Below are positions 9,389-44,896 of a DNA stretch of 46,228 nt, piece by piece. Origin of the DNA: a virus; the IMG/VR virus record IMGVR_UViG_3300028831_000087, positions 1 through 46,228 of that record; one strand, 5' to 3'. Made by a program: the position numbers and the translations under genes. Numbering within the stretch: position 1 is the first letter of the stretch; each line of letters starts with the position of its first letter. The notes beneath the pieces are model-generated. The model made no database searches. It saw nothing but the letters and a program-made list of their open reading frames with translations, and had not been told where the DNA came from.

Positions 9389-9403
9389 GTTCATTAGGTG
9401 AAC
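9389..9403. repeat. GTTCA-N5-TGAAC genome palindrome, copy 1
   Basis: GTTCATTAGGTGAAC with flanks AACC and ACTT. It ends five bases before the ATG at 9408 of the next gene. It shares orientation and flanks with the five other copies (26320, 34073, 36848, 41876, 44876). Confidence 0.7.
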
Positions 9404-9407
9404 ACTT

Positions 9408-9686
9408 ATGATAATAGATGAGAATAAATTTTTCGACTTCTTAATCGAGAACCAAGAGATTGACCCGGATAAATTCAAGGAAGAGGCTAAGTGCGTTCAC
9501 GACTTGGTAGTTAAATACCAAGAGTTAGCCTATTCAATGGCTCATAATCTGTATCAAAGCTTTAGTGAAGACTTCCCTCCAGCAGAGAATGGTTACAGTA
9601 ATCCCAAGAGAGTTCGAGCTTACGAACTTACACTCATTTGGACAGGCTTCCTGTTAGGAATAGATTCCGCAAATAGAGAGAAATAA
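9408..9686 (+). CDS. Hypothetical helical protein
   Basis: 92 residues, no recognised family. It appears wholly alpha-helical (KFFDFLIENQEI, CVHDLVVKYQELAYSMAHNLY, RAYELTLIWTGFLLGIDSA). The ATG follows directly on the palindrome at 9389-9403, and no normal ribosome-binding site is seen. Translation may therefore depend on how the palindrome and the structured segment upstream fold. Confidence 0.6.
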   Translation: MIIDENKFFDFLIENQEIDPDKFKEEAKCVHDLVVKYQELAYSMAHNLYQSFSEDFPPAENGYSNPKRVRAYELTLIWTGFLLGIDSANREK

Positions 9687-9690
9687 TTTT

Positions 9691-9897
9691 ATGACTCAAG
9701 GCTATGAATATATTAGAATCTCGTCCGATTTAGGTGACCTGGATGAACTAAACAATCTTTCAGTCAATGGCTGGCATGTAGTCTATGGAGATAAAGAGTA
9801 TCTTCTCTTAGAAAGGCCACTAACCGAAGAAGGAAGACGAAAGACGCTCGAGTATTACAAAGAAAGATATCAAAGGAAATTAAATTTCAGCAGATAG
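9691..9897 (+). CDS. DUF4177-like small protein
   Basis: 68 residues. YEYIRIS...LDELNNLSVNGWHVV...EYLLLERP follows the pattern of the DUF4177 group (a YEY strand, a helix, GW(E/H) and a final strand ending in ERP). The biochemical role of that group is unknown. The ribosome-binding site is poor; translation may be coupled to the gene four bases upstream. Confidence 0.55.
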   Translation: MTQGYEYIRISSDLGDLDELNNLSVNGWHVVYGDKEYLLLERPLTEEGRRKTLEYYKERYQRKLNFSR

Positions 9898-9905
9898 AGA
9901 AATAA

Positions 9906-11135
9906 ATGCCCGAAATAGCGATCAATCAAATCATTCCACCAGATACGAATTACCAATACGACCGTGAAGAACTTGAGCGACTCAAGAAATCAATCGAGGA
10001 AAACGGTTTATTTCACTCGATTATTCTTCAGGAGACAGAAAATCCAGAATCTTTTAAAGTTATTTCCGGGCGCGCGCGATTTGTAGCGATGCAAGAGTTG
10101 AAAAAGGAATTTATCTCAGCGAATATCCTCCCATTTTCCTGCCCAAATCCGCTAGAGATAAGCCTGCATGAAAACCTAAGAAGACATAACTTAGCCTGGT
10201 TCGATCAGGTTGAATTAGAGAAAGAGCTTCACGAATTGCGAATCTCTCAATACGGAGAAAAGCCAATAGGAAGACCTAAAGAGGGTCCTAAACAAGGCTG
10301 GAGTCAAAACGACACTGCAAGGGAACTCGGCCTCGCTTTAGGAACTTTCTCGCAGGATATGGCGCTAGCGACGGAATTAAGAAAGAATCCGTACTTACGA
10401 AATATCAAGGATAAAACGACAGCACTCAAAATCATCAGACAGATCACTAAGCAGCAAGTCTCAGAAATCGAACAGATGCTTCCGTCCGACATAGAGATGG
10501 ACGACGTCTTTCTAGGAGACTCTGAAGTAATCTTGAAATCATTTCCGAATGAAACGTTCGATTGTTGCATTTGCGATCCTCCATGGAGCGAATATAAAGA
10601 CGAAGCTTTGAGATCAGATCAATTGACTCTTTTACCGATCTTTCTGGAGCTTTACAGAGTTCTGAAACGCGATGCTTTCCTTTTCGTCGTGACCTCAACA
10701 ACGGATTTCTATTTTTACATGAAAGAACTTCAAAAACTCCGATTTCGAGTTCAACATTATCCAATCATTTGGCATAAGCCGAACACGATCACGTACGGAC
10801 GCGCGCAATGGCAATTTGCTAGAGACTACGAACCAATCGTAGTCGCGGTAAAAGGAGATCCTATTCTCACGACTAGAACAGAAATGAGCGCTATTCTCAA
10901 GTACGACAATGTGCATTATTCAAGAATGATTCACCCACATGAAAAGCCAGTCTTACTAATGGAATATCTGGTCAAATCATCAACCAATCCAGGTGCTAAA
11001 ATCGTCGATCCATTTGCAGGAAGCGGCGTCACATTAGAAGCTTGCAAGAGAACCGATAGAAGATACATTGGAATCGAGAAAGAAAAGAAATTCTACGACA
11101 AGATAGTTGAAAGGCTAGGAAGAAATGCTCTGTGA
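9906..11135 (+). CDS. ParB-like domain fused to DNA methyltransferase
   Basis: 409 residues. The N-terminal ParB/Srx-like domain (1-120) has SGRARFVAM where ParB proteins have a GxRR-type motif, and HENLRRHNL. A helix-turn-helix follows (WSQNDTARELGLALGTFSQ, 132-150). The C-terminal half is an N4-cytosine/N6-adenine methyltransferase, with catalytic motif IV CDPPW (223-227) before the SAM-binding motif DPFAGSG (368-374), the beta-class order. Such fusions are known in phages and are thought to modify phage DNA. ParB domains bind palindromic parS sites, which makes the palindrome 500 bp upstream (9389-9403) a candidate target. That link is inference. The last 11 bases overlap the next small gene. 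Confidence 0.88.
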   Translation: MPEIAINQIIPPDTNYQYDREELERLKKSIEENGLFHSIILQETENPESFKVISGRARFVAMQELKKEFISANILPFSCPNPLEISLHENLRRHNLAWFDQVELEKELHELRISQYGEKPIGRPKEGPKQGWSQNDTARELGLALGTFSQDMALATELRKNPYLRNIKDKTTALKIIRQITKQQVSEIEQMLPSDIEMDDVFLGDSEVILKSFPNETFDCCICDPPWSEYKDEALRSDQLTLLPIFLELYRVLKRDAFLFVVTSTTDFYFYMKELQKLRFRVQHYPIIWHKPNTITYGRAQWQFARDYEPIVVAVKGDPILTTRTEMSAILKYDNVHYSRMIHPHEKPVLLMEYLVKSSTNPGAKIVDPFAGSGVTLEACKRTDRRYIGIEKEKKFYDKIVERLGRNAL

Positions 11136-11280
11136 TCAAATAGATTGCTTAAATCAAGCCGATAGGTCTTATAGATGCGCGACTTGTGACTCCTACTTCT
11201 GCTCTCAGGAATGTCTCTCTGCGCACGTAAGAAGAATGATTGACAATGAAGACTTAATTTCGGAGCGCGCGACTGAATGA
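11125..11280 (+). CDS. 51-residue MYND/HIT-like zinc-finger protein
   Basis: ATG 11125 lies inside the end of the methyltransferase gene and TGA 11278-11280 overlaps the polymerase ATG. Ligands C3, C8, C18-x2-C21, C26-x3-C30 and H34 follow the start of the MYND/HIT finger pattern (C..C...C-x2-C-x4-C-x3-C-x3-H). It may be a protein-interaction module for its polymerase neighbour. This is inferred from position. Confidence 0.6.
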   Translation: MLCDQIDCLNQADRSYRCATCDSYFCSQECLSAHVRRMIDNEDLISERATE

Positions 11281-13727: not shown

Positions 13728-13778
13728 GAAGTAAAAATTCTCCCCCAGGAAAATTTATGACAGGAAGCTTAATAAACG

Positions 13779-26112: not shown

Positions 26113-26316
26113 TTAAATAAAAGGCTCGAATCTTTCTCTCAGGTAATCATGCATTGTCTCAGCAGCGTTGAAGCATTTCTCTATCAATCTACGAGCGTCC
26201 TCTAAGCATTCAGGAACTCCAGTTCTTATACATTCCTGCTGGAATAAACAGGACGCAAACGAGTTTATAGCTCGTAATCTCTCTTGTTGATCTTGCTTCT
26301 CTGCTGAGCTTATCAT
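26113..26316 (-). CDS. Small Cys-containing hypothetical protein
   Basis: 67 residues from the ATG at 26316, which lies directly after the palindrome at 26320-26334 in the direction of transcription. In-frame starts at 26325 and 26343 would run through the palindrome. Four cysteines (SCLFQQEC, PECLED, EKCF) lie in a helical protein. No family recognised. Position in the neck cluster suggests a structural or assembly role. Confidence 0.5.
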   Translation of the reverse strand: MISSAEKQDQQERLRAINSFASCLFQQECIRTGVPECLEDARRLIEKCFNAAETMHDYLRERFEPFI

Positions 26317-26319: not shown

Positions 26320-26334
26320 GTTCATGCCGTGAAC
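26320..26334. repeat. GTTCA-N5-TGAAC genome palindrome, copy 2
   Basis: GTTCATGCCGTGAAC with flanks TACC and ACTTAA. It sits between the stop codon of the minus-strand gene at 26337-26732 and the start of the gene ending at 26113. Orientation matches the plus-strand copies even though the genes here run on the minus strand. Confidence 0.75.
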
Positions 26335-26336: not shown

Positions 26337-26732
26337 TTAACACTGTCCGACGAACATAGCCGCGATTACAATCAGATCACCAGATACATCTGCAGGGATA
26401 GCTGTTGCATTAGGAAACTCAGCCAGTCCTGCAGCAGCAGCGCCGTTAGAAGTGAAAATCTTCAGGAGTCCAGAAGAGGCATTAACACCAGGAACGTATC
26501 TGTATTCAAAGAGAGTCCCAGTCGTCCCTGCGCCTAGCCCTTGGACTATCGCTCCTTGGGGCGCGCGCGATGCTTTAACTAGAGGGATAGCGAGGCTACA
26601 AGCAATTCCTCCTGTTGTATAAGTCGCAGGGTCTGCACTAATTGAGACAACTCCAAGTGCAAAATATTTATTCCCTGCGGAGAACGAGTTTCTTTCATCT
26701 GTCAGTGTAATCGTCGCAACGGCAGCCGCCAT
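26337..26732 (-). CDS. Small beta-rich head decoration-like protein
   Basis: 131 residues, Ala/Gly/Thr-rich and almost without charge (ATITLTDERNSFSAGNKYFALGVVSISADPATY ... LLKIFTSNGAAAAGLAEF). AGGAGAG precedes the ATG. The composition resembles the virion proteins at 33695 and 36864. Likely a capsid decoration or fibre subunit. No named family. Confidence 0.5.
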   Translation of the reverse strand: MAAAVATITLTDERNSFSAGNKYFALGVVSISADPATYTTGGIACSLAIPLVKASRAPQGAIVQGLGAGTTGTLFEYRYVPGVNASSGLLKIFTSNGAAAAGLAEFPNATAIPADVSGDLIVIAAMFVGQC

Positions 26733-30561: not shown

Positions 30562-31839
30562 TTAAGAGTAAACAAAGAAGTCAACGTTCATTACTTCTTT
30601 GATGTCATCGTACATCCTTGTCAGAACTTTTCCTAAATCGGTCCTATACTGAACATCAGGAATCTTACAATTTTCCAGAATTTTGTAAACAGAATCGTAA
30701 CATTCTTCAGGAGACTCTCCTATATCACTTACACAAGCGATAACGCCAGTTCCAGAAGAGTGAACTAACATATCGTCTTGCTTCATTACTTCGTAGAAAT
30801 AAGAATTATCTTCTTCTAGTCCTAATATCGGGACATTTTCATTCGGATAAATCTTTTGAAGAGCTTTTACGTCATCAGGCTCGATCGGATAAGGCGGGAT
30901 AGAAACGCGCGCGCCGCCGGAGAAGCACTGAAGAAGATTCATTTCATTATCTTGGCCGTTTACAGCGTTTGAAATCACTCTTCCAATATCATCTTCAACT
31001 AGCGTAAGTAAAGTCGGCATAGCATCGAGGCCAAACCGAGGAGTCCACTCAAGACCAAAGATTCCTTCGTCGTTGATGATACAATTAATATCAATAGGTC
31101 CAACATAATGCTCTTTTACTAAATCTTCCTCGACTCTTCCCAAAGCAACTGCAAGATTAGAATCGTCATTCCCCTGCCAGACGATATTACCAGAACAGCC
31201 TGTACTAGGACCAATATCGTCATTCATGAACTTCTTTACTTCAATAGTGTGATTAATTGGCTCGATGAAACCGTTCTTTCCAACCCAGTACTCAGAAGAC
31301 ACGATCGAGCCTTCAATAAACTCTTGAAGAATAAATTCGTCGATTTCTTTTGAGAAGCTTCTCTCAACGAATTTCATATAAGTAATTAAGTCTTCGTAAT
31401 CTTGACCAGCGTAAGTTAATTTACATGGAAGATTTTTACCGCTAGGTTTGAAAACGAATCTTATTTTCTTATTAGATTTAACAAAATTAATTGCTTCTTT
31501 AAAGTCTTTAAATTCGTACGTATCAGGGACCATGATTCCATGATCTAGCATGAAATCGAGTCCAAATCTTCGATCATTTTCTAACTTATCAGCAAAAGCA
31601 GAAGCTCCGAAAACTTTGAACCCTTCTTTTCTAAAGTAATCAGCTTTCTGGCCGTTTCCAGAGGAGTCGAAGATTATTATATCATTCGTTTCTGGCGAGT
31701 CAGTTTGACATAAGATCCCGTCGTAAACATTTGAATAATCTTTTTCTTGAATATAAATTGAACAGTTATTTCCTTCGTCCTGAATTCGCTTTAACAATCC
31801 AGCGCCTTCGCCGCATTTACTCCACATAAAAAAGTTCAT
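30562..31839 (-). CDS. PurD-like ATP-grasp enzyme within the head gene cluster
   Basis: 425 residues from the ATG at 31839. The frame is open to 31950, but that part lies inside the preceding gene. An N-terminal pre-ATP-grasp domain ends in RRFGLDFMLDHGIMVPDTYEF, followed by the ATP lid FVFKPSGKNLPCKL. IGPSTGCSGNIVWQ aligns with the DTGPNTGGMG signature of phosphoribosylamine-glycine ligase, and VGPIDINCIINDEGIFGLEWTPRFGLDA supplies the metal-binding E and (N/R) motif. PurD ligates glycine to phosphoribosylamine. Here a purine role is uncertain, because no other purine gene is present. An amide-forming modification of a virion or host molecule is an alternative. It overlaps no neighbour. Confidence 0.8.
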   Translation of the reverse strand: MNFFMWSKCGEGAGLLKRIQDEGNNCSIYIQEKDYSNVYDGILCQTDSPETNDIIIFDSSGNGQKADYFRKEGFKVFGASAFADKLENDRRFGLDFMLDHGIMVPDTYEFKDFKEAINFVKSNKKIRFVFKPSGKNLPCKLTYAGQDYEDLITYMKFVERSFSKEIDEFILQEFIEGSIVSSEYWVGKNGFIEPINHTIEVKKFMNDDIGPSTGCSGNIVWQGNDDSNLAVALGRVEEDLVKEHYVGPIDINCIINDEGIFGLEWTPRFGLDAMPTLLTLVEDDIGRVISNAVNGQDNEMNLLQCFSGGARVSIPPYPIEPDDVKALQKIYPNENVPILGLEEDNSYFYEVMKQDDMLVHSSGTGVIACVSDIGESPEECYDSVYKILENCKIPDVQYRTDLGKVLTRMYDDIKEVMNVDFFVYS

Positions 31840-32215: not shown

Positions 32216-33705
32216 GGAAGAACCCTCACATTAAAAGCTGTAGCACTTGGAGTCAGGATTGCTAACCCACATAACTTGACCGTCACCGTATCAGGAGCAC
32301 TAACCCAAGCATTCCATATCGCTCCTGTGCCTGGATCAGTGACCGGACTCGCTACTGCTGTCATTCCTGTCGTCGCCCCTGTTACAGTCGCCGTTCCTGT
32401 GTCGCAGGTTCCGAGAGTCAGACCGCCTGAAACCGAACCTGTTGTTCCTGAGAGGTATGGGGTGGGTGTACTGAAGGCTCCGGTTCCATTAAAAAATTGA
32501 GTAGCGTCAGCGGGAAAGGGGACGTTCAGTAATTTGGTTCCCAGATTGGTTACGATAAGTGAATTCGCAGCGCCAGGGAAAAATGCATTTGACAAGCTGA
32601 TTCCAGCATCGGCGCCGATTATTAAATAGGAACCTCCAGAGCCCACTTTGATCCCCTGCGTGGCATTGTAATTGTCACCAAAAGCATAGGGAGTATTGTA
32701 AGGAAAGTTGATCGAGGCGTCCGAAGAGTTATCAATAATGGTTCCCCCGTCGGTGCCCAGAGAAGTCATCTGGAAAAAGTTACTGTATGGATCAACCATC
32801 GCACAATCCGTCCCAGCAAGAGTACGAAAGAAAATCGTCCCGGTTATCCTGGGATCTCCACCAGGCGGAGCGGTCACCATTACCTGTCCGTCCATAGTGT
32901 TATCGACCACCGTAACGGTTGTAAAGATTCCGTACGCGGCAGTCGGAAACGTATCCGCTCCGGTTGCTGACACGTAAGAATACGCATAGCAGTGAACACC
33001 GTTATCCACATTTCCCGCTCCAGCACCCGCTAGAGCTGCAGTCGGTGGGGTCATTGGATCAGGGACACCAAAAATATTAAGGTTTCCAAGACCATCGTTT
33101 AGAACGTTCGTCATGCCGCCGAGCGTTGAACCGTTGATTCGATATTGAATTGAGTTATCGGGAGTTCCTGGGGCCGCTCCACCACCCGACGCGTGGCAAG
33201 CTCCGTCTGCTCCGAGGTACTGAGTGCCGGAACAACCAGAGAACAGTCCGACGATTGTGCTTGGGGAGGCTAATGTCGCTTGCTTTCCATTAAGCTGCGT
33301 CTGGATAGAGCTAGTAGGATCGAGATAACCAAATATCGTCGGTGATACACCGTCCACCGTTTTGTTCGTAAGCGTTTGTGTGTCGGTCGTGCCAACCAGA
33401 AGGCCACTTGCCGGGGCCGTAGCACTGACGCCACCAATTTTCGCTACACCTGGATTAGGATAAGTTCCACTAAGGTCACCACCTGCTGATCCAGTGGGCG
33501 CGCCTCCTCCACCACCGACAGTAGCCCAGGTTCCTGAGGTACAACTATAGAGAGCTCCTGTTGAAATTACCCTTTGAATCGCTGCTGCATTATTACAGCT
33601 TCCTGAAGGAGCAGAGTTAACGTATTGAATCCTCTGAGCGGGCTGAGAACTTGCTAGCGGAGCAAGAATAATTGTTAGAATAAATAATCTAAATCTAAAT
33701 CCCAT
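32212..33705 (-). CDS. Fibre-like beta protein with signal peptide
   Basis: 497 residues. The N-terminus (MGFRFRLFILTIILAPLASSQPAQ) is a convincing signal peptide, odd for a virion protein. GDLSGTYPNPGVAKIGG and TNKTVDGVSP are motifs common in phage fibres and in surface proteins of environmental bacteria. The rest is Gly/Thr/Ser-rich beta structure with few charged residues. Base composition and codon use are less A-rich than in the replication genes. It may be a host-derived surface adhesin captured by the phage, or a fibre whose signal targets it to the envelope. Confidence 0.65.
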   Translation of the reverse strand: MGFRFRLFILTIILAPLASSQPAQRIQYVNSAPSGSCNNAAAIQRVISTGALYSCTSGTWATVGGGGGAPTGSAGGDLSGTYPNPGVAKIGGVSATAPASGLLVGTTDTQTLTNKTVDGVSPTIFGYLDPTSSIQTQLNGKQATLASPSTIVGLFSGCSGTQYLGADGACHASGGGAAPGTPDNSIQYRINGSTLGGMTNVLNDGLGNLNIFGVPDPMTPPTAALAGAGAGNVDNGVHCYAYSYVSATGADTFPTAAYGIFTTVTVVDNTMDGQVMVTAPPGGDPRITGTIFFRTLAGTDCAMVDPYSNFFQMTSLGTDGGTIIDNSSDASINFPYNTPYAFGDNYNATQGIKVGSGGSYLIIGADAGISLSNAFFPGAANSLIVTNLGTKLLNVPFPADATQFFNGTGAFSTPTPYLSGTTGSVSGGLTLGTCDTGTATVTGATTGMTAVASPVTDPGTGAIWNAWVSAPDTVTVKLCGLAILTPSATAFNVRVLP

Positions 33706-34066
33706 CGAGTCTTACCTCACAAGCCTGAGAAGCCGCTCCACCTTGAAGAAAATAATCCTTATAGCAAATTGTATTTCTGGTTGAAGTGACTGCAAAAGTG
33801 CTACCAGCGTTAAGAACTTTTCCTGTCGTGTTAGCAGAGTTCCTGTCATTTACTGTCAGAGTATTTCCATTTCCAGAGTCCGCCTGGACCTCGAGAAAAG
33901 TCCCTCGATCGGTTAGTATTCCATCCGTCGGGATAGCGCCAGTTATTGCAGTCTCATTAGTTCCATTGTTCACGAGGCCATAGTTTGCTGTCCCTACAAT
34001 GAGAGAAAATAGATTATGAACTGCCGTATCCGCTGGTAATGTTATCTTAAAAGTCCTGAATGCCAT
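33695..34066 (-). CDS. Small beta-rich virion protein
   Basis: 123 residues, Thr/Asn/Gly-rich (NLFSLIVGTANYGLVNNGTNETAITGAIPTDGILTDRGTFLEVQ). It starts right after the palindrome at 34073-34087 and overlaps the fibre-like gene at its end. Likely a decoration or head-completion protein. No named family. Confidence 0.5.
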   Translation of the reverse strand: MAFRTFKITLPADTAVHNLFSLIVGTANYGLVNNGTNETAITGAIPTDGILTDRGTFLEVQADSGNGNTLTVNDRNSANTTGKVLNAGSTFAVTSTRNTICYKDYFLQGGAASQACEVRLDGI

Positions 34067-34072: not shown

Positions 34073-34087
34073 GTTCACTCCATGAAC
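34073..34087. repeat. GTTCA-N5-TGAAC genome palindrome, copy 3
   Basis: GTTCACTCCATGAAC with flanks AACC and ACTTAC. It lies in the 35-base gap between the portal stop and the next minus-strand start. Read on the minus strand it contains GGAG seven or more bases before the ATG at 34066, so it may also serve as a ribosome-binding site. Confidence 0.75.
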
Positions 34088-34101: not shown

Positions 34102-36366
34102 TTATCTTGCCCCATTTGAACTTGTCGGAGGCTCCATCGCGTCGAGAATCGGCTTAGCTGTTACTTTGACTGCTTGTTTATTCACTTCAGCTTCAGCTTT
34201 CGTGTCAACGTAAGCCTTTGATCTTTTTTCTTGCTCTGCCTCAGCATTCTGTTGCACTAACTGTAAATGCTGCTGTAAATGCTGTTCGATCATCATGTAT
34301 TGATCGGGCGCGGTTTTCTTAAGGTCAAGGCCACGTTGCCCCGCGAGGAAATACTTACACATTTCAATATGAATCTCATTGTCGTCAACTATCGGATCAA
34401 CCTGAACGGGAACGCCTTTCATTATGTCGGCAATTTCGACGGCTTGTTTAGTTATTTGCTCTTCTCCAGGAATGTCTAAATCTGTGAACGATAACAAATC
34501 GGCTATAATGCGCCGATTTGGAGTCGCGAATAAAGCCGCGTTAATAAACTGATTATTAAGCTCAACAAGTTTAAAAAACAATGTCTGCTTCTGGGGGTTA
34601 CTAATTGGAAAACTATCAGCTCCTTCTGGCTCGACCTCTCCCACATGGCCTGTGAGATCTGCTTTTCTAATCCAAACGTTGACATAATTATCTTTCTGCG
34701 TGGGGTCTGGCGTCGTGAATCTCTCGTCGTCGATCATGTTTTCAACGTAGAGATGAACGCACTTCTCCATCAGTTTAGCCCAATTGATCGTGAATAAGGA
34801 CCAGGCGATCGACAGCCTCTGCAGTGCCATCGTGCGCGACTGCTGATATTCACCAAGCGTTCGCGATTTCCCCTCGCCTGGCCCTCCGTAGAGGGATGGG
34901 AATGATCCGACTACGAACTGAGAATCCTTGTCAACTTGCTGACCAAATGGAGCGACTTCTCGACTTAAGGTCGCGCGCCCTCCCTCATAAAAGCTATTTC
35001 CTAGCGTCTGTCCTTCTCGGGCGCGCGCCGGATAAATCATCCCAGGTCGCGCTTCATGCTTACTGTACACGTTGAAATTCAGGACTCTCGGATCAGCGAA
35101 CTGCGAGCCAATGCCCTGCTCGATAGTTTCAAGAGTTAGATTGAATAAGACGTTTCTTGACTCTTGCAGCGGAATTAATGGCTGACCTATTGCGTCAGCA
35201 TGAATATAAGTAGAAAGACCGACTTTACAAATCGTCCAGTATTTATCGAGGTCTTCGTCTCTTGACTCAGCGTATTTATTTCCTATGAACGAAACGTAAG
35301 CTCCATTTGGGAACTTTTTGTAAAGCTTTTTCTTCTCTGTCTCTTTATCCCTCGGAAGACCCTCGAAGGCCCAGGGTCTAAGCCAGCATTGTCGATGCGT
35401 TGCGAGGTCGTGGTTATCATCGGCTCGGGAAAAGGAAGTGAAAGTTGACGGAGTACGTGCCATTCTCTCGTATTGTTGCGAATCTTCATCATCGTTCTCG
35501 ATTTCATCTGCGATATGTGGATAAATACTTTTCAAAAAGGGTTTCGGTTGATCGAGAGCTTTAATTAGATAAGAAATATCGCCTTGCTTTCGCGCCCAGT
35601 AAGGAACTTTAACGTGAAGGCCTCCGAAGCAATCTATGATAACTCTCGATTTAGGACTTTCTTGAAAAGAATCCAAGACTGTGTTGACTTCAAGAGGCGA
35701 TCCACATTCCGGACAAGCATGCAAGCCCTCTTGCAAGTCCTCCTCGTCTTCAACCGGGAAATTCTTGTCGCAGTGTATACAAGAGAGCTGCTTCTTAAAG
35801 TTCTCAATGTTTACCATCCCGAAGGCTTTGTCACTCTTCGGCGCGTGGTACCAGGCAAGGAGTCCCTGATTCCAAAGAGTGAAGAGGCTCATCAACTGAA
35901 GGACTTTTACTTGATTATGCCTCTGAATCAGATCTGCTATTTTTGAGTACGTTTTCGAAGTCAAAAGATCATCGTCGTCTTCAGCGTCATCGGGAGGGAA
36001 TCTAACAGTCGGGACTTGAGCAGCAAGAGCCGCAATGATCGCTTCTCCATGCGCCTTATACACATTTATGACAAAATCGTAAAAAGGTCCTTCGACCCCT
36101 TCTCTTCCTTCATCTTCACTGAACCACTTGTAAGCTAATGGGCTTAGCCAGTCTTGGCGACTTTCAGACCAAAAGACAAATTGTATCCCATGCCAAAATT
36201 CCTCATTCTTTTTCCAAAGCTTAAGCTGTTGCTTACGAGTCCATGAGTCTTCTTTCTCATATTTATCTACAAGATACTTCAAACAATCCTGGAGATTTTT
36301 GTCCAGCTTGTGATTATTTGGATCTTTCTCTTCTGGTTTTCGTGGGTTTGGAGATTGAGGAGTCAT
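34102..36366 (-). CDS. Portal protein with zinc-ribbon insert
   Basis: 754 residues, the usual size for a podovirus portal. An N-terminal helical part (LKYLVDKYEKEDSWTRKQQLKLWKKNEEFWHGIQFVFW) resembles portal clips. Residues 196-221 hold C196-x2-C199 and C218-x2-C221 (CIHCDKNFP...CPECG), a zinc ribbon not present in the common portal families. A Glu/Gln-rich coiled-coil C-terminus (LQQHLQLVQQNAEAEQEKRS) fits a portal barrel. The start overlaps the stop of the upstream HNH gene (ATGA), so expression is coupled. Confidence 0.82.
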   Translation of the reverse strand: MTPQSPNPRKPEEKDPNNHKLDKNLQDCLKYLVDKYEKEDSWTRKQQLKLWKKNEEFWHGIQFVFWSESRQDWLSPLAYKWFSEDEGREGVEGPFYDFVINVYKAHGEAIIAALAAQVPTVRFPPDDAEDDDDLLTSKTYSKIADLIQRHNQVKVLQLMSLFTLWNQGLLAWYHAPKSDKAFGMVNIENFKKQLSCIHCDKNFPVEDEEDLQEGLHACPECGSPLEVNTVLDSFQESPKSRVIIDCFGGLHVKVPYWARKQGDISYLIKALDQPKPFLKSIYPHIADEIENDDEDSQQYERMARTPSTFTSFSRADDNHDLATHRQCWLRPWAFEGLPRDKETEKKKLYKKFPNGAYVSFIGNKYAESRDEDLDKYWTICKVGLSTYIHADAIGQPLIPLQESRNVLFNLTLETIEQGIGSQFADPRVLNFNVYSKHEARPGMIYPARAREGQTLGNSFYEGGRATLSREVAPFGQQVDKDSQFVVGSFPSLYGGPGEGKSRTLGEYQQSRTMALQRLSIAWSLFTINWAKLMEKCVHLYVENMIDDERFTTPDPTQKDNYVNVWIRKADLTGHVGEVEPEGADSFPISNPQKQTLFFKLVELNNQFINAALFATPNRRIIADLLSFTDLDIPGEEQITKQAVEIADIMKGVPVQVDPIVDDNEIHIEMCKYFLAGQRGLDLKKTAPDQYMMIEQHLQQHLQLVQQNAEAEQEKRSKAYVDTKAEAEVNKQAVKVTAKPILDAMEPPTSSNGAR

Positions 36367-36842
36367 TGTATTAACTCCTTAATATCCTTAGACTTCTTTC
36401 TAAGCCAATACTCTTTTGATCTAATACTCTGACAGATACTACAAGTCCTCTGTCCCCTATTATTCCAAGAATCGTATTTATGCCCTCTCGGACAAAGGGT
36501 CTTATTACTATTTCCGTGTCTTCCCTTTCGGTACATATCGGAATTATTATCAAGCTGGTCTCCTAAAAATAAATGACCAGGATTCCAGCAGTCGGGAACA
36601 TCACAATGATGGCAAGCCTGAACTTTAGGATCATCTAAATCTAATCCTAGGTGAATTGACGCTGCTAGACGATGTACCAGAACGACGTTATAAGTGATGT
36701 TTATAACTCCATATCCATTCTTATTCTTTCCTCCAGACCATCGCCAACAAGGTTGTCCATTATAAGTATGAGACTCATCAATCCAAGTCTTTGACCAAAG
36801 TCTCTCTTCTAATGACATGCCTCTTTTACTATATTTCCGCAT
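36363..36842 (-). CDS. HNH homing-type endonuclease upstream of portal
   Basis: 159 residues. CWRWSGGKNKNGYGVINI ... VHRLAASIHLG ... CHHCDVPDCWNPGHLFLGDQLDNNSDMYRKGR is the HNH_3 pattern with a DNA-binding NUMOD-like tail. A C-terminal CPRGHKYD...CSICQ zinc finger completes it. It is paralogous to 40691-41203 (same CHHCDV..CW.P.HLF.G core and CP.GH end). The ATG follows the palindrome at 36848. Its stop overlaps the portal start. It is likely a selfish homing nuclease. Confidence 0.85.
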   Translation of the reverse strand: MRKYSKRGMSLEERLWSKTWIDESHTYNGQPCWRWSGGKNKNGYGVINITYNVVLVHRLAASIHLGLDLDDPKVQACHHCDVPDCWNPGHLFLGDQLDNNSDMYRKGRHGNSNKTLCPRGHKYDSWNNRGQRTCSICQSIRSKEYWLRKKSKDIKELIQ

Positions 36843-36847: not shown

Positions 36848-36862
36848 GTTCACTCCGTGAAC
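36848..36862. repeat. GTTCA-N5-TGAAC genome palindrome, copy 4
   Basis: GTTCACTCCGTGAAC, the most symmetric copy (6-bp arms, 3-base centre), with flanks AACC and ACTA. It sits between the stop of 36864-37595 and the start of the HNH gene. On the minus strand GGAG falls just upstream of that ATG. Confidence 0.8.
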
Positions 36863-37595: not shown

Positions 37596-37617
37596 TCTTT
37601 CTTATTCCTTGTTTACC

Positions 37618-38520: not shown

Positions 38521-38538
38521 TTTTATTTCCTCGCTTCG

Positions 38539-39100: not shown

Positions 39101-40698
39101 CTCATTGCTCTATGAAATCGCTTCACTGGCACTTCAAAATCCCCAACTTGTTCAACACGTTCCATAGCGCGGTGAAGATAATTGTAATCATTTGTTCTCT
39201 GGAACTTCTCGAGGATCTGACTTACTCGGTCACGCTTATCACCTTCGAGCTTCAGAGTTCCTAAGTACTTGTCGACTGAGTTAATCAGATATCTCAGCGT
39301 GTCGTAAGGATCGTCTCCATTAAATTCGCGCACGTCCTCCGCTGGTTTATTCGTCGTGTTTGACTTTTTGTCGTATATGCATAGCGGAATGCATTTCCTT
39401 AATTCGATACAGTCGGGAAAAATTTGCAGTTTGGGAAGATTCTCTTCAGGCTTTTCGGGCTCGAATGAGGCTAGATAGCTTTTATAAGCTTCGACGCCTT
39501 GCATTCTTAAAACGCGCGCAGCGAAGTCTGAATCGAAGTTGTCTTTTACTATCTTGCTCTTAGGCTTTTCACGCCAGCGCAAGTATTCCTGTATAAGTAA
39601 TTTTCCGGCTATCCTATCGTTATCTGCTTGTCGCGCAGTTAAACCGGAATATTTAGTGAACTGCTCTTGCTGAGTTAACTCGTCGCCTCGGTTCTGCCAA
39701 GCGCTACGACATAAGACTATGTCAGAATACTTCTCTCCTTGAGAAAGCCTTCCAATATCCGTTGCCCAGGTTGAAGTCTTCGCTTCTTTAATCGCGTACT
39801 CTCTGTAAATGTATAAACGGTCTTTAGGACTAAGCGCGCCCCATAGCGCGACCGTCATCGCGCTGTAGCCCCAATCTATAGAGAGGAAACGTAACCAGAA
39901 ATCTGGAATTTGAAACGGCTGGACTATATGACAGGCGTTAGCTGGTTCACCTTTTGAATCGTTAGGAACCTCTCTGTATTCATCGAAAACCTGCCCAGAA
40001 AACGTGTCCCACGCGCCATAACGCTTTGCCTGCTTCTCGGCCTCTGGTAGAGACTCAAGTCTATTAACGTATGACGGATCGTTCGACATGAGGTATGGAT
40101 TGTCCTCTGCGAACGACTGAATAAAGATTCTTTTCAGTTTTGTGGTCTTATCAATAATTATCGTACCATAGGGTGCAGGCTGTATAAAGTAGTCTCTAAC
40201 CCATTGGTGCCCAATATTTCCAGGGTTAGTAGCGGAACGAACTATAGCAGGAAGCCTGTTTGAAGAAGACCGACAACGTGTTTTTGAAAGGTAAGTATAT
40301 TGAAATTCAGTAAAAGAAGTTAGTTCGTCGAATCCAATGTAGTTATATTCAGCAGTGTCGTATTTGCGGACGTCCTCCTCATATTCGGTATGCCCGAATT
40401 GCATGACCGCTCCAGAGGGGAATGTCCATCTCTTACGCTCTTCGTTGTATTTTGCACCCGTCAATTTATACCAATCGCGGGAGCGAATAATAATTTCTGA
40501 CTCCAATTCGGGGAAAGTCCTTCTAAGAATTAGACCTTTAAATTTAGGATCTTTGTAGAAGCCACGAACGATAGGAAGCATCAAAAGAGCTTCACTTTTT
40601 CCGCCACCTGCGGCTCCGCCGAACAGTCCCTCGAAGATTGTGTCGGGGAGGGAGAAAAAAGTCGTCTGCCTCTGGTGCGGCCGCCAGACCTTATCCAT
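39097..40698 (-). CDS. terL: Terminase large subunit (TerL)
   Basis: 533 residues. Walker A GGAAGGGKS (27-35), Walker B YIGFDE with acidic pair at 124-125, the motif III-like SATNPGN, and nuclease motif SIDWGYS with Asp at 275 are all present. This is the ATP-driven DNA-packaging motor with a C-terminal RNase H-like nuclease that cuts the concatemer. The order HNH - terL - small genes - HNH - portal keeps the packaging genes together. The ATG lies within the last codons of the HNH gene upstream (8-base overlap). The first six residues are mirrored in that HNH product. Confidence 0.95.
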   Translation of the reverse strand: MDKVWRPHQRQTTFFSLPDTIFEGLFGGAAGGGKSEALLMLPIVRGFYKDPKFKGLILRRTFPELESEIIIRSRDWYKLTGAKYNEERKRWTFPSGAVMQFGHTEYEEDVRKYDTAEYNYIGFDELTSFTEFQYTYLSKTRCRSSSNRLPAIVRSATNPGNIGHQWVRDYFIQPAPYGTIIIDKTTKLKRIFIQSFAEDNPYLMSNDPSYVNRLESLPEAEKQAKRYGAWDTFSGQVFDEYREVPNDSKGEPANACHIVQPFQIPDFWLRFLSIDWGYSAMTVALWGALSPKDRLYIYREYAIKEAKTSTWATDIGRLSQGEKYSDIVLCRSAWQNRGDELTQQEQFTKYSGLTARQADNDRIAGKLLIQEYLRWREKPKSKIVKDNFDSDFAARVLRMQGVEAYKSYLASFEPEKPEENLPKLQIFPDCIELRKCIPLCIYDKKSNTTNKPAEDVREFNGDDPYDTLRYLINSVDKYLGTLKLEGDKRDRVSQILEKFQRTNDYNYLHRAMERVEQVGDFEVPVKRFHRAMR

Positions 40699-41203
40699 TC
40701 AGAGGCCTCCCAACTAATTCATGATAGTAAACTCTCTTCCTTTGTCGATCACACTCTATGCACACTCGTGATCCCTGATTTATTCTCGTATTTTCAGGAG
40801 TGTACTCGTGACCCTGAGGACAATGGGTTTTATGACCATTGTGGCTTGCTCTTGAGGATATTCCCTTAGCTGCAGCGTCTCGACTATTATCAGCTTGAGT
40901 TCCAGGAAATAGGTGCGTAGGCTCCCAGCAATTTTTCACATCACAATGATGGCAAATATCTAAAGAGCTACTAATATCGAAATCAAAGAACAAACTCGCG
41001 GAAATCCTATGCACGCAGACCATATTTCCCAGGAACCTCATGTAGCCATAACCTCTTGAGGTAGACCCAAGGAATCTTCTACAATTAACTCCATCGTATG
41101 ATCTACTGCTATCAATGAAACTAGACCTGTTAAGTCTCCTCAAAGCTTTTAATTCGTACTTTGAGAGTTCCTCAACAGCTCTCGGTTTCCAGACTTTATC
41201 CAA
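40691..41203 (-). CDS. HNH homing-type endonuclease upstream of TerL
   Basis: 170 residues from a TTG at 41203. VCVHRISASLFFDFD...CHHCDVKNCWEPTHLFPGTQADNSRDAAAKGISS is the HNH core. CPQGHEYTPENT...CIECDR is a C-terminal zinc finger, as in the paralogue at 36363. The first residues MDKVWKP repeat the first residues of TerL (MDKVWRP), and at DNA level roughly 16 of 21 bases agree. This suggests insertion of the nuclease gene at the terL start with re-creation of the terL 5' end. Confidence 0.85.
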   Translation of the reverse strand: MDKVWKPRAVEELSKYELKALRRLNRSSFIDSSRSYDGVNCRRFLGSTSRGYGYMRFLGNMVCVHRISASLFFDFDISSSLDICHHCDVKNCWEPTHLFPGTQADNSRDAAAKGISSRASHNGHKTHCPQGHEYTPENTRINQGSRVCIECDRQRKRVYYHELVGRPLNG

Positions 41204-41466: not shown

Positions 41467-41495
41467 CGCGAGCTAAGTTCCCCAGACTATCACTC

Positions 41496-41585: not shown

Positions 41586-41594
41586 ATAGGTCAA

Positions 41595-41750: not shown

Positions 41751-41893
41751 TTGTCTATTACCTTATTTATCTGCTGCCGTTCTGTCGATCTGTTACCGTT
41801 CTGACCACATGGCGTCTTTCTATAATCGCGCGCGCTCGTCTATCAACTTTTATCAACTACTGCGGCCGTCGAACTGTTCATCCCGTGAACGCT
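41751..41893. other. Non-coding spacer with repeats
   Basis: No convincing gene. It contains a GCGCGC run (41828-41836), a CTGACCACATGGCG segment repeated at about 42247-42260, short TTTTATCAACT repeats and palindrome copy 5 at its right end. Confidence 0.45.
41876..41890. repeat. GTTCA-N5-TGAAC genome palindrome, copy 5
   Basis: GTTCATCCCGTGAAC with flanks AACT and GCTT, three bases beyond the stop of the minus-strand gene at 41894-42187. Same orientation as all others. The flank is one base different from the commonest form. Confidence 0.7.
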
Positions 41894-42360: not shown

Positions 42361-42498
42361 CTATCTAATCCCAGGAATCATCATCGCAATGCAGAGTAAC
42401 AAGACTGCGACCCAAAGAGGAACTCTACCAGTTATTCCAGAAATTAATGTTAGTATGAAGGCAATGACGACTAGCGTTAGAGTAATAGTGATTTGCAT
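42361..42498 (-). CDS. 45-residue two-helix membrane protein, holin-like
   Basis: ATG at 42498 to TAG at 42361. Residues 3-20 (ITITLTLVVIAFILTLIS) and 26-42 (VPLWVAVLLLCIAMMIP) are two hydrophobic segments joined by a short GITGR turn. The size and topology are compatible with a small class II-type holin or pinholin, but no sequence family is recognised and no endolysin was found next to it. The upstream ribosome-binding site is weak. Confidence 0.45.
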   Translation of the reverse strand: MQITITLTLVVIAFILTLISGITGRVPLWVAVLLLCIAMMIPGIR

Positions 42499-42521
42499 TG
42501 ATTAGGTCTTTTTATCAGTTT

Positions 42522-43043
42522 TTATTTTACTGCGTTGAGCTTACTCGAAAGATGCGACTTTCTCGTACTCGCTCTGAACTGCTCACAAGCTGGACAGTTT
42601 TCTAAGTGCGCGCCTTGTCCCATTGGTGGGATGAGTAGATTCGTTTTCTCGAATAAATTCGCGTTTCTTTCGGCCATCTTAGCGTCTCTTTGATTAGCTA
42701 ACCAAAAGTCTGGATCTTTCGCGTTGAGTTTTCTATCTGGCTCCTCTGACTCTTCAGATGCTATAGCGCTTGGCTTTCGTAGCGAGTCCGACTCTGATCC
42801 CTGTTCAGATTCTGATCCCTGTTCAGATGCTATAGCGTTTCTTTCAGCGCGCGTTTCTTCAATCGCGCGCACGACTTCAGTCTCGGTTTCATCGTCTTTA
42901 TCAGGAATATATCCGAAGATTAGAGCAGTTTTCACTTTTCCTACTGCAGCAATGCAGATGTCGTGAAGTAACCAGCGACAATAGAAGTGACCTAGCCCGA
43001 ATCCGATTATGAAAGCGATTAAGAAAAGAAAAAATATGACCAT
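42522..43043 (-). CDS. Single-pass membrane protein with Ser/Glu repeats
   Basis: 173 residues. Residues 1-18 (VIFFLFLIAFIIGFGLGHF) are a membrane anchor. Residues 60-100 are a low-complexity acidic region with the 6-residue repeat SEQGSE (18-bp unit duplicated exactly), flanked by AIASE segments. The C-terminus holds CPAC and a basic SHLSSKLNAVK. The repeat region shares AIASEE/EEPDR with the HTH protein encoded at 43436. This suggests repeat expansion or sequence exchange. Unknown function, possibly an envelope or lysis accessory protein. Confidence 0.55.
   Translation of the reverse strand: MVIFFLFLIAFIIGFGLGHFYCRWLLHDICIAAVGKVKTALIFGYIPDKDDETETEVVRAIEETRAERNAIASEQGSESEQGSESDSLRKPSAIASEESEEPDRKLNAKDPDFWLANQRDAKMAERNANLFEKTNLLIPPMGQGAHLENCPACEQFRASTRKSHLSSKLNAVK
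42793..42828. repeat. Exact tandem duplication of an 18-bp unit
   Basis: TCTGATCCCTGTTCAGAT occurs twice in a row (42793-42810 and 42811-42828) within the membrane protein gene, encoding SEQGSE twice on the minus strand. CAGATGCTATAGCG flanks it at 42755-42768 and 42824-42837, with a one-mismatch copy at 43906-43919. Confidence 0.75.
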
Positions 43044-43044
43044 T

Positions 43045-43428
43045 TTATTTTAAATTTAGCTCTTTGAATCCTACTGCTATAGGTGGAGGTAATGGTATCT
43101 CTTCTCTTGTTGGTCTCCATAGATGTAGACAATATGGATGGTTATTGATCCACTGGCTCTTGGGTGGATGGAGTTGCATTACTGTTTCTTCGTCGTCCCA
43201 AAACAGCGATTTTATGTAACACATCTCTTCCCAATTTGGGCAGCGATTTGGGAGGCTTATTGAGACGTGCTCCCAAGTAAACTCTCCTTCTGCATCATTA
43301 GCGATAACCCTTAGATAATAGTTTCGAGATAAGTAAGGAATATGAAATGCTCCAAAGGTATCCCCAGTATCACTGGAGTATTCTCCATTCCTTACTCGAT
43401 ATTTCTCTAGATCAGAGGAAAATCTCAT
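43045..43428 (-). CDS. DUF7694-like phage protein
   Basis: 127 residues. The run WEHVSISLPNRCPNWEEMCYIKSLFWDDEETVMQLHPPKSQWINNHPYCLHLWRP (written in parts) carries the invariant-looking HVS...NRxPxWEEM...LFW...QLHPP...N.HP.CLHLWRP pattern of a widespread phage family (DUF7694-like). Its role is unknown. It usually lies near packaging genes. Confidence 0.65.
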   Translation of the reverse strand: MRFSSDLEKYRVRNGEYSSDTGDTFGAFHIPYLSRNYYLRVIANDAEGEFTWEHVSISLPNRCPNWEEMCYIKSLFWDDEETVMQLHPPKSQWINNHPYCLHLWRPTREEIPLPPPIAVGFKELNLK

Positions 43429-43435
43429 TAGATAA

Positions 43436-44029
43436 CTAAATCTCTATCGTCTTAAAGGCTCTCTCTTGCTTTAGCTCAGGAGAGTAAATGATGAAGTTTA
43501 TTTGATTCTCCGCGACGCTTGGCGGCGCGATCTTCTCAACTACTCGGCCCATGTTCGAAGCTATTAAACTTAAATCCTTCGCGCTGCAACCGGAAAGCTT
43601 ATCGTCAGTTAAGAGTCCCAGAGAAGCCATTAAACGTTCCAACGCGCGATCTCTAACGACTCCCGTGATCTCTTCGACTCTTTTTTCGTCGATTCCTTGG
43701 ACTTTCTTCCTCTCGATGTAGCTCACCGCTGCTTGAGTGATTCCGTGCGCGCGAGCGATATTAATCTGATCTTCTCCTGTTCTAGAGCGTATAGCGATTT
43801 CTGTTCTCTCGTCCTTTGTGAGATTGATTCGATTCTTGCCTGATAGAAGAATTGACTTCTCAGTTACTTGATAATCAGGCTCTTCTGTTACTCTGTCAGG
43901 CTCTTCAGATGCTATGGCGGGGGAGATTCTTTCGGGAGTTCTAGAGATTTCTTGACTCTGTTTGAAACGATTCGCGAGATTCTTTTCTGAACTTAGTCTT
44001 GCTCGAACTTGCTCTTCACTAAGGAACAT
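43436..44029 (-). CDS. HTH protein, candidate terminase small subunit
   Basis: 197 residues. After an acidic, repeat-containing N-terminus (AIASEEPDRVTEEPDYQVTEK) there is a helix-turn-helix (DERTEIAIRSRTGEDQINIARAHGITQAAVSYIERKK). A helical oligomerisation-like region (RALERLMASLGLLTDDKLSGCSAKDLSLIASNM) and a beta-like tail follow. DNA-binding plus oligomerising halves, and position as the first gene of the packaging/late arm, fit TerS. A late-arm transcription regulator is the alternative. Confidence 0.55.
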   Translation of the reverse strand: MFLSEEQVRARLSSEKNLANRFKQSQEISRTPERISPAIASEEPDRVTEEPDYQVTEKSILLSGKNRINLTKDERTEIAIRSRTGEDQINIARAHGITQAAVSYIERKKVQGIDEKRVEEITGVVRDRALERLMASLGLLTDDKLSGCSAKDLSLIASNMGRVVEKIAPPSVAENQINFIIYSPELKQERAFKTIEI

Positions 44030-44062
44030 GAGAGGGATTCCTGATAGGGCTAAATCGTACTA

Positions 44063-44123
44063 ATTATACACTTCTGGCATTGTTCTCTATCGTTAGTGTG
44101 CGCCCGTTGCCCTTTGAAGTCAA
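44063..44123 (-). promoter_or_regulatory. Putative late-arm promoters on the minus strand
   Basis: In the divergent gap 44030-44222 the minus strand has a perfect -10 (TATAAT at 44063-44068) about 35 bases before the ATG of the HTH gene, with only a weak -35 (GATAGA). Farther upstream TTGACT (44118-44123) is 17 bases from a poor CACACT. A half-site of the genome palindrome (GTGAAC, 44131-44136) adjoins them. Confidence 0.4.
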
Positions 44124-44170
44124 ATAAAAAGTGAACAATTTAATTCCTTTGTTTTCAACAACTTACGGCC

Positions 44171-44196
44171 ATTGCAATAATTGCCAAGATTGCAAT
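44171..44196. promoter_or_regulatory. Paired ATTGCAAT palindromes, likely operator
   Basis: Two identical 8-bp palindromes, ATTGCAAT, at 44171-44178 and 44189-44196, are 18 bp apart centre to centre, so they present on nearly the same face of DNA. They stand in the divergent control region upstream of the plus-strand zinc-ribbon gene. A dimeric repressor such as the ribbon-helix-helix or HTH product could bind. Confidence 0.45.
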
Positions 44197-44222
44197 TATG
44201 TGGTAGGCTAGTTCGGAGGCCC

Positions 44223-44366
44223 ATGCAAAAATTCAAGAGAAAATGTCCGGTTTGTGGAAAAGAGTTCGAGACAAAGAATACTAAAAAGATTTATTGTTCT
44301 CAAAGCTGTAACTTCAAGTCCTGGGATAAAAAGAATCCGAGAGTTAGAAAAGAGGAAAAGAAATGA
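44223..44366 (+). CDS. 47-residue zinc-ribbon protein
   Basis: ATG at 44223 with GGAGG just upstream. An in-frame TTG at 44181 lacks a binding site. CPVCGKEF...YCSQSCNFKSW (C9-x2-C12, C25-x3-C29) is a small zinc ribbon with basic ends. It overlaps the HNH gene (ATGA), so the two are co-translated. It could assist the nuclease in DNA recognition. Confidence 0.65.
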   Translation: MQKFKRKCPVCGKEFETKNTKKIYCSQSCNFKSWDKKNPRVRKEEKK

Positions 44367-44896
44367 GAGACGACAAGCCAGATTACGTAGGACTTTATGG
44401 AAATGTGCTTATAACTAAATCATGGTGTGAATCCTGTAACTGTTATGCTTTTGTTATAGGTGGTAAACTTCAATGTTGTGACTCTAAGCGCAGTGCCATT
44501 CCTCAACTTTTGAAACGAGAAACTATGCCAGAGCAAATACGAAAAAGACCCTCTCTACCTATGAGAAAACATATAATGGAATTACAGAATTACTCTTGTT
44601 TCTATTGCCTTCGTGAGTTTGGAACGAAAATAGTCTTTAAAAGTAAAGTAGTGACCCTAAGACTCCATTGGGATCACGTCGCGCCTTGGAGTTACCTACA
44701 AAATAACCAAACAGAAAATTTCGTCGCTAGCTGTCATTTATGTAATCTATGGAAATCTTCGACTGTCTTTCAAACTATTGATGAAGCTCAAATATTTCTG
44801 ATACTTAAGTGGAAAGAGGAGCTAGCTGGTAGTCCTGAGCCTATTAAGTTCGGAAGCTTCTCCAAGAGAAAAACTGTTCACCGTGTGAACACTTAA
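44363..44896 (+). CDS. HNH endonuclease (plus strand)
   Basis: 177 residues. CESCNCYAFVIGGKLQCCDS at the N-terminus can hold zinc. The HNH core is CFYCLREFG...LHWDHVAPWSYLQNNQTENFVASCHLCNLWKSS, including the DHV active site and two CxxC knuckles, differing from the HNH_3 pair. It may be a free-standing homing or packaging-associated nuclease. Its last codons include genome palindrome copy 6, so the protein ends VHRVNT. Confidence 0.82.
   Translation: MRDDKPDYVGLYGNVLITKSWCESCNCYAFVIGGKLQCCDSKRSAIPQLLKRETMPEQIRKRPSLPMRKHIMELQNYSCFYCLREFGTKIVFKSKVVTLRLHWDHVAPWSYLQNNQTENFVASCHLCNLWKSSTVFQTIDEAQIFLILKWKEELAGSPEPIKFGSFSKRKTVHRVNT
44876..44890. repeat. GTTCA-N5-TGAAC genome palindrome, copy 6
   Basis: GTTCACCGTGTGAAC, with flanks AACT and ACTTAA. 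It is the only copy inside coding sequence, ending the HNH gene. The arms are perfect for six bases around a 3-base centre. Confidence 0.75.

Follow-up and report, generated by a model that had tools for sequence, protein, structure and literature searches.

KorB of plasmid RK2, a clamp-forming CTPase of the ParB family, acts as a global repressor through dispersed operators, and the stoperators of phage L5 and the CIRs of phage phiC31 are dispersed repressor sites of temperate phages. Noc, from Bacillus and its relatives, is a ParB-fold protein with several palindromic sites termed NBS (PMC7383237; see also PMC8429893), and a Gln in its recognition helix is reported to recognize adenine (PMC7383237). 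Fusions of ParB-CTPase domains to N6_N4 methyltransferases (MTases) are frequent in phages according to a 2025 survey, which leaves their role open (PMC12704722), and it has been suggested that such fusions steer modification toward particular places on the viral genome (PMC12704722, PMC6536676).

The window, by which we mean the whole 46,228-nucleotide stretch of viral DNA analyzed here, encodes the same fusion, and the palindrome GTTCA-N5-TGAAC recurs along it (Table 1). As in the KorB/RK2 system, a ParB-type N-terminal domain and an HTH are combined with dispersed palindromes in a genome of similar size, some of them at gene starts; unlike in that system, the phage protein has a C-terminal methyltransferase, the half-site spacing is different, sites also lie in genes, and no ParA-type ATPase was found in the window (PF13614 search, positive in 14/14 control genomes; the record may be incomplete). 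What recalls the L5 stoperators and phiC31 CIRs is the scattering of short words along a phage genome, frequently at the borders of genes, whereas here the proposed reader is a ParB-methyltransferase and copies are also coding; no repressor or integrase was recognized among the proteins scanned. In the available text on Noc, NBS (TATTTCCCGGGAAATA) is without a spacer, Noc is without a methyltransferase, and its adenine-reading Gln occupies a helix position different from that of the phage Gln150. The N5 spacing of the phage half-sites exceeds that of parS or NBS. Canonical parS (TGTTTCACGTGAAACA) has 0 matches in the window within 3 mismatches, and this, together with the lack of a ParA-type ATPase there, makes a plain partition role unlikely; from the ParB/parS analogy drawn in the preliminary description we retain a ParB-type reader and drop canonical parS. 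The available parts of the papers on the phage fusions give no DNA target site for them, and a literature search of limited depth found no published report of such sites. The candidate target and specificity residue offered here, with their residue-to-base code, make the role of ParB-MTase fusions directly testable.

The palindrome in the window and in related phages

Exact copies of GTTCA-N5-TGAAC number six in the window, at precisely the places and with the flanks given in the preliminary description, against a mean of 0.02 in shuffled sequence (0/100 shuffles reached 6). When ≤2 mismatches are allowed, 28 matches are obtained and 22.8 are expected, which is no excess, so that the family consists of six near-perfect copies. 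These score 27.6 to 34.9 bits; the runner-up, at 42581, reaches 15.2 bits and falls inside the shuffled range (highest, 16.0). The word is the core of a longer symmetric element of ~27 bp.

With 65 reading frames picked by hand, 8% of the window is noncoding. For gene 26113 the start was shifted to the ATG behind the site, and both versions were counted: five of the six copies are fully noncoding if it starts at the ATG at 26316 (P = 1.2e-5) and four if it starts at the GTG at 26343 (P = 4e-4). The proposed placement in gaps between genes therefore applies to four or five copies, the sixth ending an HNH gene, and four copies (9389, 26320, 34073, and 36848) lie 3 to 6 nt 5' of an ATG. The common orientation reported earlier holds for all six copies in the window; as a conserved property it was rejected, since polarity differs at the orthologue of 34073 (flanks aacc...actt in the window, aact...ggtt in G001 and G002, and atgt...ggtt in G003). 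At the orthologue of 26320, polarity is alike between the window and relatives. No tRNA genes were found in the window, and a search of the phage collection with the 754-aa protein encoded at 34102-36366 gave no match.

Table 1. Palindromic sites of the window and the protein proposed to read them
Feature	Position	Strand	Context
Site 1	9389..9403	no strand	GTTCATTAGGTGAAC, 29.0 bits; 4 nt 5' of the ATG of 9408-9686; 502 bp before the ParB-MTase gene
Site 2	26320..26334	no strand	3 nt before the minus-strand ATG at 26316
Site 3	34073..34087	no strand	in the 35-bp gap following gene 34102-36366; 6 nt 5' of the ATG of 33695-34066
Site 4	36848..36862	no strand	21-bp gap before HNH gene 36363-36842
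Site 5	41876..41890	no strand	intergenic gap; the minus-strand genes on either side lack orthologues in compared relatives
Site 6	44876..44890	no strand	last codons of HNH gene 44363-44896; upstream of HTH (small-terminase-like) gene
Proposed reader, ParB-HTH-methyltransferase	9906..11135	+	ParB_N (CTPase fold) ~1-93, ParB/KorB/Noc-like HTH ~94-191, N6/N4 DNA MTase ~196-406
Gln150 codon	10353..10355	+	recognition helix GTFSQDM; residue tracking the innermost arm base

In related phages the ~27-bp element is kept at orthologous places, some of them within genes. The repeat recurs beside orthologous genes at site 2 (at 7962 in G001 and 2043 in G003) and at site 3 (at 41812 in G001, 1606 in G002, and 10401 in G003); the genes adjoining site 4 have no orthologues in the compared relatives, and in G001 a site directly precedes the MTase gene. 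Many relatives carry sites within coding genes (helicase, primase, and MTase), and this retention of copies inside coding sequence as well supports the earlier claim that the six palindromes are DNA-level sites, as judged by sequence comparison.

The arm word varies between phages (GTTCA, CTTCA, TTTCA, and GTTCG) with the dyad unchanged, and in Desulfofustis phage LS06 the arm is GTCCC, again with the dyad kept (site sequence, GTCCCAANTTGGGAC). Selection of the cores CTTC, TTTC, and GTCC, and of profile-like patterns for G001, G003, G004, and G005, followed the scans. Across 43 MTase-bearing records GTTC-N7-GAAC ranks first of 256 4-mer dyads (170 versus 82 for the second), and 30 records hold 128 dyads versus 21 for the reversed pattern. 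No clear dyad is present in 11 of the 43 MTase-bearing records (G039, G040, G041, G043, G048, G049, G050, G058, G062, Microcystis phage Mel-JY34, and MW202489), and G038 is doubtful, with 4 dyads versus 3 in the reversed control. A flank-specific scan of viral contigs recovered at least 118 stretches, with contigs L020, L061, L127, L128, and L145 also among the relatives, of which one search kept 79 distinct loci out of 173 confirmed.

The ParB-HTH-methyltransferase protein

The Pfam ParB_N model matches the protein at 7e-8 and 9/10 members of set A1. A whole-protein structure search had methyltransferases only among the matches listed, and the N-terminal part was therefore folded and searched alone. 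This fold was aligned to the ParB CTPase (Z 13.4, rmsd 2.2, 90 residues), KorB (Z 11.8, rmsd 5.5, 172 residues), and Noc (Z 11.1, rmsd 6.7, 171 residues), with KorB structures 8qa8, 8qa9, and 1r71 among the structure matches; Noc was also recovered with phmmer (residues 6-186, E 3e-6) and Foldseek (199 columns, E 1.7e-9). Nucleotide binding is predicted from the boxes GxxR and ENLxR, whose G55, R58, and R93 are kept in 78/79 alignable sequences. In the HTH domain, helices are predicted at 134-141 and 145-160; Pfam HTH models gave no match in the protein, and its DNA-binding part alone scored Z 5.4-5.7 against the DNA-binding domains of Noc, KorB, and ParB, level with sigma-factor rows.

In place of the ParB-type C-terminal dimerization domain, which is absent, residues 196-406 form an N6/N4 methyltransferase domain (Z 23.7 and 23.9 against CcrM and MboIIA, respectively). 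The window protein, a putative beta-class N6/N4 MTase, has DPPW followed by DPFAGSG, the motif order of that class (DPPW, then DPFxGSG). Methylase motif I is GSF in 28/78 sequences and G003 has DPLW; with motifs so varied, methylation is perhaps not what these proteins share. A scan of genome contigs with the MTase alignment yielded 29 loci (best E, 1e-13), none of whose matches extended N-terminally beyond residue 177, so that no host was found.

Links between the protein and the sites

Among the 65 genes of the window, that for the ParB-MTase alone is present in 12/12 motif-bearing relatives (counting those with the replication module) and in 0/6 motif-free ones (G027, G028, G029, G032, G035, and G037, with 2 dyads altogether), which may form one clade and include two fragments, G028 and G029. 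These six have capsid and terminase genes in 6/6, primase in 5/6, and polymerase in 4/6. Dyads occur in 3/9 MTase-negative records (G002, 1; G017, 5; G024, 6); these three are missing the greater part of the replication module and look similar to motif-bearing families. G000, G001, and G003 (all GTTCA) have identical HTH sequences; that of G004, G005, and G007 (CTTCA) differs from the GTTCA-class HTH and is alike among the three except for one substitution near the end, and the remaining motif classes have differing HTH sequences. When records with <2 sites are dropped, a site lies in or ≤600 bp from the MTase gene in 24/35 records versus 10.2 expected, and the VRPLN-encoding genes there use site-making codons in 10/10 cases (4 distinct strings) versus 0.46 expected.

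Residue 150 of the recognition helix goes with the innermost arm base: Gln/Met accompanies A, Glu accompanies either G or a mixture of G and A, and in LS06 Arg accompanies C. The G fraction at ±3 is 0-0.125 in 17 Gln/Met records and 0.14-1.0 in 17 Glu/Asp records (7 versus 11 after 60% dereplication, P = 5e-4); the idea was spotted by eye in 43 records ahead of testing, and the count dropped L299, L300, L301, G062, and records with <2 dyads. A dyad was present in 35/40 held-out loci (absent from 5), 22 of the 40 sharing >90% nucleotide identity with an earlier record over some stretch and three (L342, L354, and L356, the same as G067, G065, and G066) having dyads already listed earlier. Their half-sites had A in 28/28 cases with Gln and G in 56/92 with Glu (29 A, 7 other). 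In the strictest subset of 13 loci, excluding near-duplicates and sites seen before, the counts were 6/6 A with Gln and 15 G, 6 A, and 3 other of 24 with Glu. The held-out loci thus follow the pattern, although their numbers are small. Independent switches of residue 150 number only 4-5, and 4/4 pairs agree (P = 0.125).

In an F-test column scan residue 150 ranks first of 334 MTase columns (P = 0.0019), and a better-fitting column by the same test occurs in each of the four control proteins (polymerase, primase, terminase, and capsid). Plain class disjointness in ungapped columns gives 1/375 for the MTase versus 21/4448 in 13 control proteins, which is no excess; an excess appears only when ≤5 residue types are required (1/375 versus 2/4448, both in the 34102-36366 protein). 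A hand alignment of G142 with ParB G170 and of Q150 with N178 (numbering from PMC7383237) is tentative and differs from the phmmer alignment.

That the ParB-MTase at 9906 reads the palindromes, as the preliminary description supposed, is backed by the co-occurrence, the HTH classes, residue 150, and the sites near the MTase gene; on these sequence-based grounds we consider the phage's own protein to be probably the reader.

Possible roles of the sites

It seems likely from the same comparisons that the phage's own ParB-HTH-methyltransferase binds or loads at the dispersed palindromes, which would then be akin to parS, NBS, or the KorB operator. One subunit would use its HTH to read one half of the ~27-bp dyad, and residue 150 would determine the base pair at ±3, the innermost of the arm. 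The nucleotide-bound ParB-type N-terminal domain would then close as a clamp at the site and slide, and the attached methyltransferase could mark phage DNA in cis, with some four to twelve spread-out points of entry; where a copy lies within or close to the protein's own gene, autoregulation would be possible too. Whether in-cis modification is the main purpose we rate at somewhat less than an even chance. We propose, more tentatively still, a self-marking that is private to each phage: clamps would load at cognate palindromes, slide away as controlled by nucleotide, and methylate in cis, so that modification would fall on the phage's DNA and spare the host's, and site and HTH would coevolve by the code Gln/Met-A, Glu-G, and Arg-C at ±3. 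If clamp loading does direct methylation in cis, the virus could mark its own genome and the ParB switch would be extended beyond segregation.

The same reader might instead use the sites as KorB/Noc-like operators at which adjacent genes, its own included, are repressed or roadblocked, methylation being secondary; we regard this as possible but on the doubtful side. The noncoding position of four or five of the six window sites, with four 3-6 nt before starts, points this way, as do LS06, where 5/9 sites fall in the 4.9% noncoding part (P = 7e-6), the frequent occurrence of a site within or close to the MTase gene, the best match beyond 170 residues, which is to the ParB-family plasmid repressor KorB, and the HTH being kept while methylase motifs vary. 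The sites inside the helicase, primase, and MTase genes of many relatives argue against it, and promoter operators would not give an even genome-wide spread: with genomes treated as circles, sites are more evenly spaced than chance in 15 representatives (P = 0.0006), and the mean percentile across all 23 records with ≥4 sites is 0.295.

Operators of another phage DNA-binding protein, either the HTH (small-terminase-like) product of 43436-44029 or an unknown one, are improbable. Sites do lie upstream of this gene in G001, G003, G004, and G005 too, its product has a weakly recognized HTH, and control proteins also contain base-tracking columns. In tblastn searches, however, the gene was not found in motif-bearing G007, G015, G016, G023, and G036, where diverged copies could have been missed, and it is present in motif-free G032; the co-occurrence and the recognition-helix residue favor the ParB-MTase.

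An RNA hairpin whose loop and 3' arm contain the Shine-Dalgarno sequence and to which a translational repressor binds would suit the several sites of the window and nearest relatives that lie 3-6 nt before an ATG with GGAG, GGTGA, or GGGTGA on the sense strand; we set it aside as very unlikely, since conserved copies sit inside helicase, primase, and MTase frames, one copy is at the 3' end of an HNH gene, and the base tracks a DNA-recognition-helix residue.

Least credible is a functionless origin, by spread of a small mobile palindrome or by compositional accident: the window flanks are alike, as if recently copied, and two sites adjoin genes without orthologues in relatives, but separate lineages use different words in the same dyad, orthologous positions and synonymous sites are kept, and accident is excluded by the shuffles.

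A conserved family of palindromic sites

The window, a 46-kb tailed-phage record, encodes a helicase, an exonuclease, Sak4, the ParB-methyltransferase (MTase), a DNA polymerase, and a primase on its plus strand and the structural genes and the terminase on its minus strand. PHROGs was run on 30 of the window proteins, Pfam on 10, and NCBIfam on 10 (some proteins twice; a subset of all), and no integrase or repressor was recognized among them. The palindrome GTTCA-N5-TGAAC occurs in six exact copies, where the preliminary description had located them; shuffled sequence gives 0.02. That description had assigned five copies to gaps between genes, and either four or five prove to be wholly noncoding, depending on the choice of one gene start (P = 4 × 10−4 or 1.2 × 10−5, respectively). 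A profile built on 11 exact copies, from the window and two near relatives, describes a symmetric element of ~27 bp, roughly TTAASTSTTCA-N5-TGAASASTTAA; the six window copies score 27.6 to 34.9 bits, the next best place scores 15.2 bits, and the top shuffled score is 16.0 bits. That next best place is a weak, imperfect seventh copy, GCTCACAAGCTGGAC, inside the shuffled range. The sequence CGCGCGCGCG is present as a dyad five times in the window, five times in the relative G001, and eight times in the relative G003.

Features of the window
Feature	Coordinates	Strand	Remark
Palindrome copies (starts)	9389, 26320, 34073, 36848, 41876, 44876		exact
Seventh copy	42581-42595		15.2 bits
ParB-methyltransferase gene	9906-11135	+	ParB CTPase fold, ParB/KorB/Noc-like HTH region, N6/N4 methyltransferase domain
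Codon of residue 150	10353-10355	+	Gln, in GTFSQDM
754-aa protein	34102-36366		86-88% identity in G001-G003
HNH gene	36363-36842		
HNH gene	40691-41203		
HNH gene	44363-44896		just below Pfam cutoff

The palindromes form a genuine family of sites in the DNA, and this family is conserved. Among relatives gathered with a terminase query (53 loci), the dyad recurs at orthologous places in whole records. G001 and G003 both have it after the gene for the 754-aa protein (as does G002), at the boundary at 26320, and upstream of a terminase-small-like gene (as do G004 and G005); it also lies within the helicase (G001, G004, and G005) and primase (G004 and G005) genes. Other lineages use other words, namely, CTTCA-N5-TGAAG (G004 to G008), GTTCG-N5-CGAAC (G009), TGTTC-N7-GAACA (G015, G016, G017, G023, and G024), TTTCA-N5-TGAAA (G063), and, in Desulfofustis phage LS06, six GTCCCA-N3-TGGGAC copies plus three more at one mismatch. 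Throughout, the dyad axis and arm position stay constant while the word changes, which speaks for a DNA-binding dimer with drifting specificity. At least four GTTC-N7-GAAC dyads are found in 24 of 43 MTase-bearing records, versus 4 for a CTTG control dyad; adding CTTC, TTTC, GTCC, and profile-defined groups, picked after the scans, gives 32 dyad-bearing records, G038 being doubtful among them. The remaining 11, in which no such dyad appeared by any scan run, may read other words.

The ParB-methyltransferase as the probable reader

The proposal that the phage's own ParB-methyltransferase recognizes the site gains backing from comparisons, among them its co-occurrence with the motif and a residue of its recognition helix, and this protein is probably the reader. 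Of 65 window genes, tblastn detects only this one in every one of the 12 motif-bearing relatives that have a replication module and in none of the 6 motif-free ones, although this co-occurrence is weak by itself because two motif-free records, G028 and G029, are fragmentary and all six may be one clade. Those six have capsid and terminase (6/6), primase (5/6), and polymerase (4/6). The HTH is identical in the window, G001, and G003 despite 71 to 74% protein identity, and the HTHs of the CTTCA group are alike, with one substitution in G007.

Residue 150 goes with the innermost arm base (±3). The G fraction there is 0 to 0.125 in 17 Gln/Met records and 0.14 to 1.0 in 17 Glu/Asp records, without overlap. 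At held-out MTase loci, Gln accompanies A at 28 of 28 half-sites, and Glu accompanies 56 G, 29 A, and 7 other bases at 92; in the strictest subset (13 loci), all 6 Gln half-sites have A, where two of the three informative loci have the HTH type of G053 to G060, and the 24 Glu half-sites comprise 15 G, 6 A, and 3 others. Phage LS06 combines Arg with C. Contacts well known from protein-DNA recognition include those of Gln with A, Glu with C, and Arg with G. An F-test found a better-fitting column in four of four control proteins; disjoint columns number 1/375 in the MTase versus 21/4,448 in 13 controls, or 1/375 versus 2/4,448 with at most five residue types. Since fitting columns occur in controls too, residue 150 is singled out by lying in a DNA-binding protein's recognition helix, together with the co-occurrence, not by the column statistic alone. 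When HTH columns are left out of the tree (five residue and six base changes), the independent pairs agree in 4/4 cases (P = 0.125). The two control columns that remain at the limit of five residue types, and so likewise follow the arm base, belong to the 754-aa protein.

Site placement and possible roles

On the simplest reading, the protein is of the ParB type and its cognate sites are dispersed; the function is now within reach of direct testing. Such sites could be spread loading points for in-cis modification of phage DNA, which fits the methyltransferase domain, the coding copies, and the even spread. Across 15 representatives, the sites are spaced more evenly than chance would give (P = 0.0006); with seven at or below the tenth percentile and three above the median, evenness is general, not universal. 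Unlike this spread, G003 has four dyads within ~850 bp (18915, 19162, 19252, and 19756), upstream of the terminase-small-like gene. A passage in an earlier paper (PMC6536676, citing its reference 37) carries the proposal that phage ParB-like proteins may steer the modification apparatus to viral-genome sites during packaging.

Alternatively, the protein might regulate genes in the manner of KorB or Noc, which fits the gene-boundary copies, the copies at its own gene, and the variable methylase motifs. Of 35 records, 24 have a site inside the MTase gene or within 600 bp of it, against an expectation of 10.2, and all 10 MTase genes encoding VRPLN at one position use site-forming codons for it (four distinct strings; 0.46 expected). 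Motif I reads DPFxGSF, not DPFxGSG, in 28 of 78 sequences, counting near-duplicates (G003, G023, G052, G053, G055, G057, G060, G061, and held-out loci), and G003 additionally has DPLW in place of DPPW; judged by these motifs, methylation is possibly altered or lost in such proteins, with the ParB and HTH parts retained. By a small margin, we favor in-cis modification.

Neighboring genes and other palindromes

Two of the palindromes are touched by HNH genes. The HNH gene at 40691 matches that at 36363 by tblastn, and the two may be related; none of the three has an orthologue in the seven relatives' records compared. The 754-aa protein, with no match in PHROGs or in the annotated phage collection, is perhaps the portal, judging by position. 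Palindromes of other geometry are enriched in some MTase-bearing phages (TTAAGA-N8-TCTTAA in G043 and G046; GTTAT-N2-ATAAC, eight copies, in G051) and are perhaps sites of a second protein. The G007 dyad signal stems from a tandem repeat at the record end (15-bp units, 30758 to 30845), and that of G062 (GCTAGC-N3) may be of the same kind.
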